Below, one piece after another: positions 7,278 to 12,797 of a stretch of 64,000 nucleotides of DNA. Location: NCBI RefSeq assembly GCF_037975245.1, contig NC_092575.1, positions 15,230,310 to 15,294,309 on the forward strand, given 5' to 3'. Numbering within the stretch: position 1 is the stretch's first letter; the number at the start of each line of letters is the position of its first letter. The notes below the pieces were generated by a model, which saw only the letters and a list, made by a program, of their open reading frames with translations, ran no database searches and had not been told where the DNA came from. The position numbers and the translations under genes are program-made. This stretch comes from Apostichopus japonicus. Taxonomy: Eukaryota; Echinodermata; Holothuroidea; Aspidochirotida; Stichopodidae.

Positions 7278-7774
7278 GGCAGGTGACGTTAAAATGATTC
7301 CTGCTGTGGAGGGTGTTTCTTTGAGGACTTGTTGAGTGCTGTTTTGCTCGTCACGCTTTGGTTCTGCTGGGCGAGCCAAGTAAGGAAGACACATGACATA
7401 TTTGACCTGAAACTGAATAACTTCAGGGAAAACTGCAACAAGTTTGTCGAAATGTATCAAATATTTTTACACTATAGCCTAATTTCAAATGTTTTCGTAA
7501 CGTTGCATTTTATGCTATAGAGATGTATATCCCCCAGTTACAAGCCGTGGGCGTAGAGTAATGTCTATTCGGGGAGCAAACTCCTGTCGTTGGATCCATT
7601 TGTGTTTTTCTCACTGGATCCGTCTCATTAGCCACTAATGGGCCGCCAACTGCATTTTAATTACCTTCATTCATTAAATGCCGGTCTCCATGGCTGCTAA
7701 ATAGATGAAATTAATATTCCACAGCTCCCAATTCCCCTATTATTTTCTACACGTAGAAATTTGCCATTTTAATC

Positions 7775-7837
7775 GCATTCAATCGAGTGGTAAAGACTTC
7801 GTTTCGTGACACAAAGGACCGGTGTTCGATCCCTACC
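7775..7837 (+). promoter_or_regulatory. tRNA-like Pol III promoter segment, copy A
   Basis: An A-box-like run, AATCGAGTGGTAA, lies near 7786, and a B-box, GTTCGATCC, fits GWTCRANNC at 7824-7832. The hammerhead core starts 11 bases later. Not a functional tRNA. Confidence 0.55.
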
Positions 7838-7884
7838 TTCGCCTGATGAGTCCCGAAAAGGACGAAACCGGTCGAGAAGTGGAA
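7831..7884 (+). ncRNA. Hammerhead ribozyme motif, copy A
   Basis: Self-cleaving RNA motif, type I layout. Core CTGATGA (7843-7849), helix II GTCC/GGAC closed by loop CGAAAA (7850-7863), then GAAAC (7864-7868), a two-base linker and the cleavage triplet GTC (7871-7873). Stem I pairs CTTCGC before the core with GAGAAG after the triplet (five pairs and one G-A mismatch), and a bulge allows TAC to meet TGG beyond it. Stem III is minimal, as in hammerheads of Penelope-like elements and retrozymes, which often cleave best as dimers. Predicted cut after 7873. Loop II differs from the other copies by one base. Confidence 0.85.
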
Positions 7885-7953
7885 TTTTTCTGGTGTGTTG
7901 ATCTTTATGAATTTAATATATATCTGTCATACATTTGCTACACATTCATTTCT

Positions 7954-8150
7954 TATATATATATATATATATATATATATATATATATATATATATATAT
8001 ATGTATATATGTATATATATATGTATATATATATATATATATATATATATATATATATATATATATATATATATATATATATATATATATATATATATAT
8101 ATATATATATATATATATATATATATATATATATATATATATATATATAT
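7954..8150. repeat. (TA)n tract in copy A
   Basis: Nearly 200 bases of TA with a few TG changes, directly downstream of the hammerhead region. The equivalent tract is about 60 bases in copy B and 85 in copy C. Confidence 0.95.
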
Positions 8151-8236
8151 AGCGGAAGGCCCGTGCTTCGAATCCCGGTGGAGGCTGAGAGTTTTTTCAC
8201 TGTTCTTGATTTTCCAACTCATTACGATTTTCATCT
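8151..8236 (+). mobile_element. Short tRNA-related element in (TA)n, second copy
   Basis: Matches the reverse complement of 7111-7203: a B-box-like GCTTCGAATCCC, then GGTGGAGGCTGAGAGTTTTT and CCAACTCATTACG. TA repeats bound both sides. Absent from copies B and C, so it entered copy A's TA tract after duplication, or was lost from the others. Confidence 0.6.
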
Positions 8237-8272
8237 ATATATATATATATATATATATATATATATCACATA

Positions 8273-8376
8273 TAGACAAGATATACAATTTACACCATAT
8301 TGCTACCCTGGGTTTCACGTACGCATAGACGTGAAACCCAGGGTAGCAATATGGTGTAAATTGTATATCTTGTCTA
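8273..8376. repeat. Perfect 48-bp inverted repeat
   Basis: Left arm 8273-8320 and right arm 8329-8376 are exact reverse complements around the 8-base loop ACGCATAG. TA repeats lie on the left and again at 8443-8500. Absent from copies B and C. Confidence 0.97.
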
Positions 8377-8442
8377 TTTGTGATATTATTGCTCTACTAC
8401 GGTATTGAGCTCTTTCTGCTACTACTGATTACACTTATACGT

Positions 8443-8500
8443 GTGATATATATGTATATATATATATATATATATATATATATATATATATATATATATA
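8443..8500. repeat. (TA)n tract
   Basis: TA dinucleotides ending the insertion-rich interval of copy A; the shared 3' body resumes right after it. Confidence 0.95.
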
Positions 8501-8877
8501 TGGATACGGATATGAAAAGATAAATATATAAATAAACAAAGGATTACAGATCTTTTTTGAGTATTAAAAGGTAATTTATCCAAAAATGTCATAAATCCAA
8601 TTAACGTGTACTTCTCACCAAGCGATGACTTTACACCGTCATGGCGACTTATATTCTTTCGATTTGCCACATCGGGTTGTGTTAATTCGTGCCTTTTACC
8701 TAAAATATCGCAGGTCGTCAGCCACACCTCAAAGTGTTATTACACTTCATATAAGCACTCCCAAATGTACATTTTGGACAAGTTATAACTGTGAAGTGAT
8801 GATTACAATGCATATGTTTGTATCGACTTGTAGGCCTATCATATATATCAGACTGGTGCAAGTATATGGTCATTGCT

Positions 8878-9253
8878 CATTGGCGGAGCGTCCATACAGT
8901 CAGGGGGGGGGCGGATGCCCCCCCCCTGACGGACTCAAATGGACTGCTGGCGCCCTTTTTAGCTTTTTACCACTTTTTACTTATTCGAGATAATTGACTT
9001 TTTTATTGCGCTCTCATCTACCTATTGACATTTGTCACATTTTTTGGGCGATGACACCTATTTATTCTTCGTTTATATGCAAATTAGCAAGGCCCGGAAA
9101 GGGTCATTTCCGGCGATCTAGGGAGTATCTTTACTCAAAAATGTCGGTACGCTCCGCGCCAACCCGTGGTGGCGCTCCGCTTAGATAGTGTTGGAAGCGC
9201 CCCTACAGACCATTCTCGCCCCCCCTTGACCAATACCCCTAGCTCCGCCACTG
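8878..9253 (+). mobile_element. hAT-like MITE, copy 2
   Basis: Ends CATTGGCGGAGC and GCTCCGCCACTG, 11 of 12 bases complementary. Target duplication TCATTGCT at 8870-8877 and 9254-9261. Contains the G-run/C-run pair near its left end and the TGGCGC / GCGCCA subterminal block near its right end. No coding capacity. Confidence 0.93.
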
Positions 9254-10970: not shown

Positions 10971-11033
10971 TCATTCACTCGAGTGGTAAAGACTTCGGTC
11001 TGTGACACAAAGGTCCGGTGTTCGATCCCTACC
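10971..11033 (+). promoter_or_regulatory. tRNA-like Pol III promoter segment, copy B
   Basis: A-box-like CACTCGAGTGGTAA followed, about 35 bases on, by the B-box GTTCGATCC and then directly by the hammerhead. The same layout occurs in copies A and C. Confidence 0.55.
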
Positions 11034-11080
11034 TTCGCCTGATGAGTCCCAAAAAGGACGAAACCGGTCGAGAAGTGGAA
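11027..11080 (+). ncRNA. Hammerhead ribozyme motif, copy B
   Basis: Core CTGATGA at 11039-11045, helix II GTCC/GGAC with loop CAAAAA, GAAAC, and GTC at 11067-11069. All nucleotides of the catalytic core match the hammerhead consensus. Stem I and minimal stem III are as in copy A. Predicted cut after 11069. Confidence 0.87.
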
Positions 11081-11149
11081 TTTTTCTGGTGTGTTGATCT
11101 TTATGAATTTAATATATATCTGTCATACATTTGCTACACATTCATTTCT

Positions 11150-11210
11150 TATATATATATATATATATATATGTATATATATATATATATATATATATAT
11201 ATATATATAT
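11150..11210. repeat. (TA)n tract in copy B
   Basis: About 60 bases of TA with one TG change, at the same place as the longer tracts in copies A and C. Confidence 0.95.
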
Positions 11211-11576
11211 GAAAAGATAAATATATAAATAAACAAAGGATTACAGATCATTTTGGAGTATTAAAAGGTAATTTATCCGCAAATGTCATAAATCCAATTA
11301 ACGTGTACTTCTCACCAAGCGATGACTTTACACCATCATGGCGACTTATATTCTTTCGATTTGCCACATCGAATTGTGTCAATTCGTGCCTTTTACCTAA
11401 AATATCGCAGGTCGTCAGCCAGACGTCAAAGTGTTATTACACTTCATATAAGTACTCCCAAATGTACATTTTGGACAAGTTATAACTGTGAAGTGATGAT
11501 TACAATGTATATGTTTGTATATCGACTTGTAGGCCTATCATATATATCAGACTGGTGCAAGTATATGGTCATTGCT

Positions 11577-11951
11577 CATTGGCGGAGCGTCCATACAGTC
11601 AGGGGGGGGGCGGATGCCCCCCCCCTGACGGACTCAAATGGACTGCTGGCGCCCTTTTCAGCTTTTTACCACTTTTTACTTATTCGCGATAATTGACTTT
11701 TTTATTGCGCTCTCATCTACCCATTGACATTTGTCACATTTTTTGGGCGATGACACCTATTTATTCTTCGTTTATATGCAAATTAGCAAGGCCCGGAAAG
11801 GGTCATTTCCGGCGATCTAGGGAGTATCTTTACTCAAAAATGTCGGTACGCTCCGCGCCAACCCGTGGTGGCGCTCCGCTTAGATAGTGTTGGAAGCGAC
11901 CCTACAGATCATTCTCGCCCCCCTTGACCAATACCCCTAGCTCCGCCACTG
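11577..11951 (+). mobile_element. hAT-like MITE, copy 3
   Basis: Same ends and same 8-bp duplication (TCATTGCT, 11569-11576 and 11952-11959) as the MITE in copy A. The shared site shows it was duplicated together with its host repeat rather than inserted twice. Confidence 0.93.
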
Positions 11952-11970
11952 TCATTGCTCTGTCAAAACT

Positions 11971-12082
11971 GATTTAAATCGATGATAAGTAAAATAAATC
12001 GATGATATGTAGAATGAAACTGGTATATGTCGATTTAAATCGATGATATGTAGAATGAAACTGGTATATGTCGATTTAAATC
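11971..12082. repeat. 41-bp tandem repeat with GATTTAAATC core
   Basis: About two and a half units carrying GATTTAAATCGATGATATG and GAATGAAACTGGTATATGTC, in the spacer between copies B and C. Confidence 0.85.
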
Positions 12083-12618
12083 GGTATAAGTCGCTCTCCC
12101 TTGATTTGAGACTGATGGCCCGCCATACCAGTTCGGCAGGTGACGTTAACATGATTCCTGCTGTAGAGGGTGTTTCTGTGAGGACTTGTTGAGTGCTGTT
12201 TGGATCGTCACGCTTTGGTTCTGCTGGGCGAGCCAAGTAAAGAAGACACATGACATATTTGACCTGAAACTGAATAACTTCAGGGAAAACTGCAACAAGT
12301 TTGAAGAAATTTATCAAAATATTTTACACTATAGCCTAATTTCAAATGTTTTCGTTACGTTGCATTTTATGCTACAGAGATGTATATCCCCCAGTTACAA
12401 GTCGTGGGCTTAGAGTAATGTCTATTCGGGGAGCAAACTCCTGTCGTTGGATCCATTTGTGGATCCGTCTCATTAGCCACTAATGGGCCGCAAACTGCAT
12501 TTTAATTACCTTCATTCATTAAATGCCGGTCTCCATGGCTGCTAAATAGATGAAATTAATATTCCACAGCTTCCATTCCCCTATTATTTTCTACACGTAG
12601 AAATTTGCCATTTTAATT

Positions 12619-12681
12619 TCATTCACTCGAGTGGTAAAGACTTCGGTCTGTGACACAAAGGTCCGGTGTTCGATCCCTACC
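12619..12681 (+). promoter_or_regulatory. tRNA-like Pol III promoter segment, copy C
   Basis: Same A-box-like and B-box words as copy B at the same spacing, immediately upstream of the hammerhead. Confidence 0.55.
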
Positions 12682-12728
12682 TTCGCCTGATGAGTCCCAA
12701 AAAGGACGAAACCGGTCGAGAAGTGGAA
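12675..12728 (+). ncRNA. Hammerhead ribozyme motif, copy C
   Basis: Core CTGATGA at 12687-12693, helix II GTCC/GGAC with loop CAAAAA, GAAAC, and GTC at 12715-12717. Identical to copy B across the motif. Predicted cut after 12717, which is 1648 bases downstream of the copy B site. Confidence 0.87.
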
Positions 12729-12797
12729 TTTTTCTGGTGTGTTGATCTTTATGAATTTAATATATATCTGTCATACATTTGCTACACATTCATTTCT

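Follow-up and report, generated by a model that had tools for sequence, protein, structure and literature searches.

Which autonomous element spreads the retrozymes of animals is described in print as an open question (PMC7761336), and that review, where it treats the retrozyme repeats, states that they show no motif revealing the element that mobilizes them. Penelope-like elements have been proposed as helpers by Cervera and de la Pena (PMC7229834), who also wrote that review and whose account of the two groups points out that both bear hammerheads, occur in tandem, and co-exist. The same source describes the weak helix III of an axolotl hammerhead, which works as a double hammerhead. For the Penelope-like element PAc of Anolis, the positions given in PMC11167929 (26 bp and 111–118 bp) place one start of reverse transcription 85–92 nt past the hammerhead cut by our arithmetic, and uncut RNA was the dominant substrate in the in vitro experiments described there. 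Here we analyze a stretch of 64,000 nucleotides of the sea cucumber Apostichopus japonicus (contig NC_092575.1, positions 15,230,310–15,294,309; the window), which contains three hammerhead ribozymes. The overall explanation that we favor, with a probability of about 0.7, is that the window holds duplicated remnants of a retrozyme and that this retrozyme was copied by a Penelope-like enzyme, which would start inside a closed RNA and prime at broken (TA)n DNA.

The three ribozymes lie on the forward strand at 7837–7879, 11033–11075, and 12681–12723. Each exceeds the gathering score of 34 of the Rfam hammerhead model RF00163, with 38.0 bits for copy 1 (E = 5.1e-6) and 41.9 bits for copies 2 and 3 (E = 2.6e-7 each). 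The motifs CTGATGA, GTCC/GGAC of helix II, GAAA, and GTC, which an initial annotation of the window had noted at equal spacing in the three copies, are seen in the sequence, and the cuts that it placed after 7873, 11069, and 12717 are consistent with it. Judged by motif and covariance score, these are real type I hammerheads, and self-cleavage is predicted. The same annotation called the ribozymes intact; this is correct for the core and incorrect for helix I, in which a G.A mismatch leaves five of six pairs in every window copy, whereas 83 of 99 strict-core copies elsewhere have all six. The minimum free energy fold of the window ribozymes is not a hammerhead, either singly or as a pair.

To place these copies in a wider context, the genome was searched (671,581,487 bases in 35 contigs). 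A 341-bp unit taken from locus L008 matches at least 117 stretches (40 of 1223 candidates scored). The RF00163 model gave at least 59 matches, 50 of them above the cut-off (74 of 66,307 candidates scored), and all 30 loci extracted from this search, two of which are the window's own, contain the 341-bp unit. A 19-mer situated directly after the ribozyme has 327 exact occurrences genome-wide, and the reversed pattern has none. The units are arranged head to tail, and successive cuts in locus L040 are 341 bases apart. The family of hammerhead-bearing retroelements that the initial annotation had anticipated is therefore present, as dispersed copies of a 341-bp unit that carry an A box and a B box. 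The two box names are motif labels, assigned by eye in the unit and in the window copies.

Numbered so that u1 is TCGAGTGG, the unit comprises the A box (TGGTCGAGTGG) at u339–u8, the B box (GGTTCGATTCC) at u41–51 with a spacing of 43 nt by eye, the ribozyme core from u61, the cut after u90, a run of five T (T5) at u102–106, and the sequence TATATAT at u134–140. Helix III is a single pair with a CCGG loop. Among the 99 strict-core copies outside the window, 89 have a palindromic loop, CCGG in 88 of them and CGCG in one. The minimum free energy fold of two paired ribozymes from L040 is a double hammerhead joined through ACCGGU. Folded as a circle, the L040 unit, which has a GC fraction of 0.42, reaches −92.5 kcal/mol, compared with −76.5 ± 4.9 kcal/mol in 200 shuffles (z = −3.2). 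The tandem and inverted segments of L040, a young insertion, are 99.4–100% identical to one another, and one RNA lies behind this locus, as the identity extends over both orientations. The units of the L051 array are 99.3% identical, which is close to a single template. By its unit and its ribozyme, the element is a non-long terminal repeat (non-LTR) retrozyme family, and a new one. Short local repeats in L087 and L102, spaced about 115, 145, and 157 bases, bear the ribozyme with a dissimilar upstream sequence.

Conservation of the ribozyme was assessed on 47 sites in 40 loci for which a match to the downstream 19-mer was the sole criterion; 28 rows were retained and 19 were excluded for low identity or coverage. 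The core is intact in 21 of the 28 copies. When CpG sites are left aside, the mismatch amounts to 2.0% for the core, and the values for loop II, the B box, and the A box are 2.8%, 3.6%, and 4.2%, respectively. The helices and flanks show 5.9–7.7%, and the sequence between the boxes, where subfamilies differ, 13.4%. The cores are thus not mutated at random. The comparison of the core with neighboring sites (6 of 297 versus 53 of 785 mismatched) gives a p value of 0.0014, which is a guide only, as sites and sequences are non-independent and relatedness is uncorrected.

The ends of the copies were mapped in 117 loci. Similarity or the RF00163 model supplied 57 of these and the 19-mer supplied 40; the other 20 are further 19-mer loci that were held out. 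Manual curation removed 11 redundant loci from the first 68, the three window copies count as three in set 1, and one of the 40 loci in set 2 yielded no array. Among the 161 3' ends, 69 fall at u131–144 and 35 at u171–180, together 104. None lies at the ribozyme cut (u86–95), two lie near the T5 (u100–110), and the other 55 are elsewhere. In the held-out loci, 12 and 5 of 26 3' ends fall in the same two zones. The 5' ends are scattered, with 5 of 164 at u86–100, and copies span the cut site, extending to about three units, as L063 does over 1010 bases. By eye, the first end site is sharp, but it lies inside TATATAT. A check of ends by eye showed that 5 of 27 entries scored as "stops at A" were continuations, which gives 22 of 60.

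Adjacent inverted copies are strongly one-sided. There are 28 head-to-head and no tail-to-tail pairs in the 117 loci (five and none in the held-out loci), and 11 of these 28 have both outer ends within the two 3' end zones. This one-sidedness suggests that synthesis was primed on both target strands. Strong TA richness (at least 0.8) marks the downstream flanks of 30 of 55 ends in the first site and 14 of 30 in the second, as compared with 4 of 53 other ends; the control values are 8 of 139 upstream flanks and 3.1% of random stretches. A further 17 flanks at the first site have a TA content of 0.5–0.8.

An alternative is that the repeats were amplified as satellite DNA, with unequal exchange and segmental duplication in place of RNA copying. 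The window copies did multiply by duplication, and local repeats do occur in the locus set (L024, L026, and L027 are of this kind, and L115 and L116 look like one duplicated locus). However, the copies are dispersed over many contigs, their 3' ends are fixed and their 5' ends are not, and their inverted pairs are one-sided. All of this speaks against such a mode of spread, and we regard it as very improbable.

The ends also bear on the nature of the template. A linear monomer cut by the hammerhead was considered as the main template and rejected, as there is no pile-up of 5' ends at the cut; one copy, L113, spans u90–140, as expected of a linear cut product. Because the copies start beyond the cut and cross it, the template was mostly an RNA closed at the ribozyme site, that is, a circle or an uncut multimer, and as a rule not a linear cut monomer. 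An RNA polymerase III (Pol III) transcript that terminates at the T5 was likewise ruled out as the template, given the two ends of 161 found there. Five or more T are retained here in 61 of 73 copies whose selection did not depend on the T5. The run is located 12–16 nt past the cut, upstream of both zones in which the copies start, and a transcript ending at the T5 could therefore not serve.

We propose the following cycle, in which the unit, the copy ends, the orientation bias, the crossing of the cut site, and the TA-rich flanks are read from the genomic sequence and the remaining steps are put forward to connect them. The unit, with its A box, B box, hammerhead, T5, and spacer, would be transcribed into RNA. 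Multimeric RNA would undergo self-cleavage, most readily in the double-hammerhead form, and the cleaved RNA would be circularized. A reverse transcriptase, presumably supplied by a Penelope-like element, would start inside the RNA at two zones, 44–50 and about 72–87 nt past the cut. Broken DNA would serve as the primer, in many cases a (TA)n tract and in many cases with both strands in use, and synthesis would continue through the ribozyme site, uncut or resealed, for up to about three units. The products would be the head-to-tail and head-to-head copies found in the genome.

The choice of enzyme is the part with the most serious competitor. An ordinary long interspersed nuclear element (LINE) could mobilize the retrozyme by target-primed copying, in which case pairing of (TA)n to A+T-rich RNA would set the ends and twin priming would invert the copies. 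Twin priming is expected to yield head-to-head junctions with small overlaps, and it could mimic extension of both strands. The first site, which lies inside TATATAT and adjoins TA-rich DNA at most of its ends, also agrees with this mechanism. Against it, ends next to non-TA flanks also fall in the two zones (9 and 10 of 51), the second zone is poor in TA, and both outer ends of an inverted pair fall in the two zones in more than a third of such pairs (11 of 28). We consider mobilization by a LINE rather unlikely. A Penelope-like enzyme is matched by the presence of two internal start sites downstream of the hammerhead, at u131–144 and u171–180, and the excess of head-to-head pairs is consistent with both-strand extension. 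In its most general form, the proposal is that animal retrozymes parasitize Penelope-like elements. The hammerhead, together with two internal start zones that follow the cut at distances of about 50 and 87 nt, would constitute a landing module of the Penelope type. The enzyme would use both strands of a broken (TA)n tract to copy circles repeatedly, and the copy ends would report an unbroken or circular template. This general form we hold only tentatively, at somewhat less than even odds.

Several observations weigh against the explanation that we favor. A substantial minority of the 3' ends (57 of 161) fall outside both zones, and the second site is by eye a zone of about u162–177 rather than a point. 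Alignment into TA tracts inflates some of the end counts; the end in L006, for instance, was scored at u177 and lies by eye at about u167. Base pairing between (TA)n and TATATAT could by itself place the first site, with no special enzyme, and the PAc start, as described in PMC11167929, is not homologous to the cut DNA, unlike the first site here. Covariation in support of a conserved structure is nearly absent (5 of 62 pairs with two-sided change, and a covariation term of +0.12), the family being too shallow. Finally, the units of arrays other than L040 and L051 differ by 2–20%, in part more than units from different loci. This divergence is compatible with old age, and it does not discriminate a single template from several.

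The initial annotation had described a tRNA-like Pol III head on each ribozyme. The sequences resembling A and B boxes and their tRNA-like spacing are present, but no tRNA was called. ARAGORN found no tRNA in the window or in any of the seven loci given to it. In Rfam searches, the sole tRNA match in the window at E ≤ 10 is at 34828–34890, under its cut-off, and none of the three loci given showed a tRNA at E ≤ 5. A tRNA origin of the head was accordingly rejected, the boxes alone speaking for it. Pol III boxes are also a feature of the schistosome Sm-alpha and Sj-alpha elements. If Pol III makes the template of the retrozyme, it would need to read through the T5; otherwise another polymerase would be required.

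A second repeat has a good B box and no hammerhead. It occurs in the window at 7121–7209 (reverse strand), 8145–8233 (forward), and 16473–16544 (reverse), as well as in L009, L033, L034, L037, L052, L063, L072, L077, L088, and L098. A query lacking the TA sequence gave 17 stretches of at least 45 bits in the window and the loci. The repeat often has one end point beside TA tracts, and in L009 two copies face each other with a TA tract between them. Its mobilization may depend on the machinery that the retrozyme uses.

Within the window, the retrozyme is present as three partial copies on the forward strand, at 7782–7955, 10978–11151, and 12626–12799, each covering about unit positions 1–177. 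Copies 2 and 3 are identical over 174 bases, copy 1 is 97.1% identical to both, and all three match the 341-bp unit (copy 1 as L003). By eye against the unit, each copy has a decayed A box and B box, at 7780–7790 and 7823–7833 in copy 1, at 10976–10986 and 11019–11029 in copy 2, and at 12624–12634 and 12667–12677 in copy 3. The window B box agrees with GGTTCGATTCC at 9 of 11 positions, and the window A box lacks its first bases by eye. The T5, a Pol III-type terminator, is at 7885–7889, 11081–11085, and 12729–12733. With one ribozyme each, partial length, a mismatch in helix I, and decayed boxes, the window copies are best described as remnants.

A repeat scan shows (TA)n tracts adjoining the 3' ends of the copies, at 7954–8151, 11150–11210, and 12798–12882. 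The initial annotation had joined (TA)n to the unit; the adjacency is confirmed, and since the tracts abut the 3' ends, they are most likely the insertion target and not a part of the element.

Comparison of the window with itself reveals that each copy is embedded in a duplicated host segment on the forward strand. Segment 1 (7278–10249) bears further insertions, segment 2 (10468–11970) is shorter at its right end, and segment 3 (12128–16379) is split by an insertion into 12128–13176 and 15347–16379. Identity between the copies is 93–96% in the 500 bases upstream, 97–100% in the element, and 96–98% in the downstream stretch. Because element and flanks have diverged alike inside the duplicated segments, the three window copies descend from one insertion; on this comparison, the three ribozymes are a single insertion multiplied by duplication of the surrounding host DNA. 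The initial annotation had instead read the element as driven by Pol III, self-cleaving, and close to 2 kb per unit; on that reading, three copies would have inserted in the window. Three copies in one orientation with shared flanks, and A and B boxes conserved in the family, would fit such an element. The 2-kb stretch, however, is the host segment with the ribozyme inside, and the unit elsewhere is 341 bp. Furthermore, a 201-base query from the window that reaches 29 bases beyond the edge of the element gave at least 48 matches in the genome when 40 of 1134 candidates were scored; three of these are in the window itself, and all 45 non-window matches begin at base 30 or later, that is, at the element edge or inside it. 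Together with the equal divergence of element and flanks, this leaves a 2-kb unit with hardly any probability.

The insertion in segment 3 measures about 2.2 kb (13177–15346) and has GATTACA at both edges. A short repeat is found at 8875–9253 and 11574–11951, at the same place in segments 1 and 2, and in inverted orientation at 13895–14282 and 5113–5525, with 84–87% likeness between the orientations. Its ends resemble terminal inverted repeats, and it is provisionally labeled hAT-like. Elsewhere in the window, a long near-perfect hairpin at 8300–8350 (CCCTGGGTTTCACGT...ACGTGAAACCCAGGG) draws a spurious match to a coronavirus 5' untranslated region at 8233–8400 (45.8 bits, compared with a gathering score of 124.9). 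A tandem array of (GAGGA)113 at 2744–3310 is free of mismatches, and satellites are present at 38437–39150 (49/191 bp), 40297–40692 (99 bp), and 43007–43595 (165 bp).

A search of the full-text literature for hammerhead ribozymes and sea cucumbers surfaced, by title and abstract, only a CRISPR paper, with subscription papers outside its coverage; the element probably adds an echinoderm family to the retrozymes. The kind of element is already known, and what is new here is the pattern of its copy ends. The end map provides indirect evidence on the helper question. If the pattern holds, an end map of this kind can be drawn for other retrozymes from their copies in the genome, which would turn the Penelope hypothesis into one that can be tested by computation, and the same mapping would test whether the template is circular.

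Compared with known systems, the element most closely resembles the metazoan non-LTR retrozymes described in PMC7229834. It shares with them the type I hammerhead, short tandem repeats (150–450 bp there, 341 bp here), low GC content, dispersal, and a predicted compact circular fold. Metazoan retrozymes are further characterized by the lack of an LTR, a primer binding site, and a polypurine tract, by abundant linear and circular RNAs, and, in some cases, by target site duplications of more than 4 bp, which TA-tract targets would mask here. The element differs by its conserved A and B boxes and by its mapped 3' ends and inverted pairs, none of which we saw among the features described there. The newt and axolotl hammerhead repeats covered by the same source likewise have a one-pair helix III and a palindromic tetraloop, with the dimer favored; the likeness is one of architecture. 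The Rfam model Hammerhead_HH9 (RF02275) scores 38.6–42.0 bits at the three window sites, below its gathering score of 52, and differs in that helix III is shorter here and the ribozyme is repetitive. With the short hammerhead-bearing retroposons Sm-alpha and Sj-alpha of schistosomes, which are SINE-like (short interspersed nuclear element-like), the comparison is by description only (PMC2770079). In its ends, the family resembles PAc, as far as that element is described in PMC11167929, and this hints at the copying enzyme. Both have a hammerhead followed by two internal start sites, 30–40 bp apart in PAc, and extension of both strands, tandem copies, and AT-rich targets are reported for PAc as well. 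In contrast to the retrozyme, PAc encodes its own protein, and its start, which shares no homology with the target, lies within an AC-rich stem loop. The preference of PAc for uncut RNA is equally compatible with an uncut multimer and with a circle as the template of the retrozyme.

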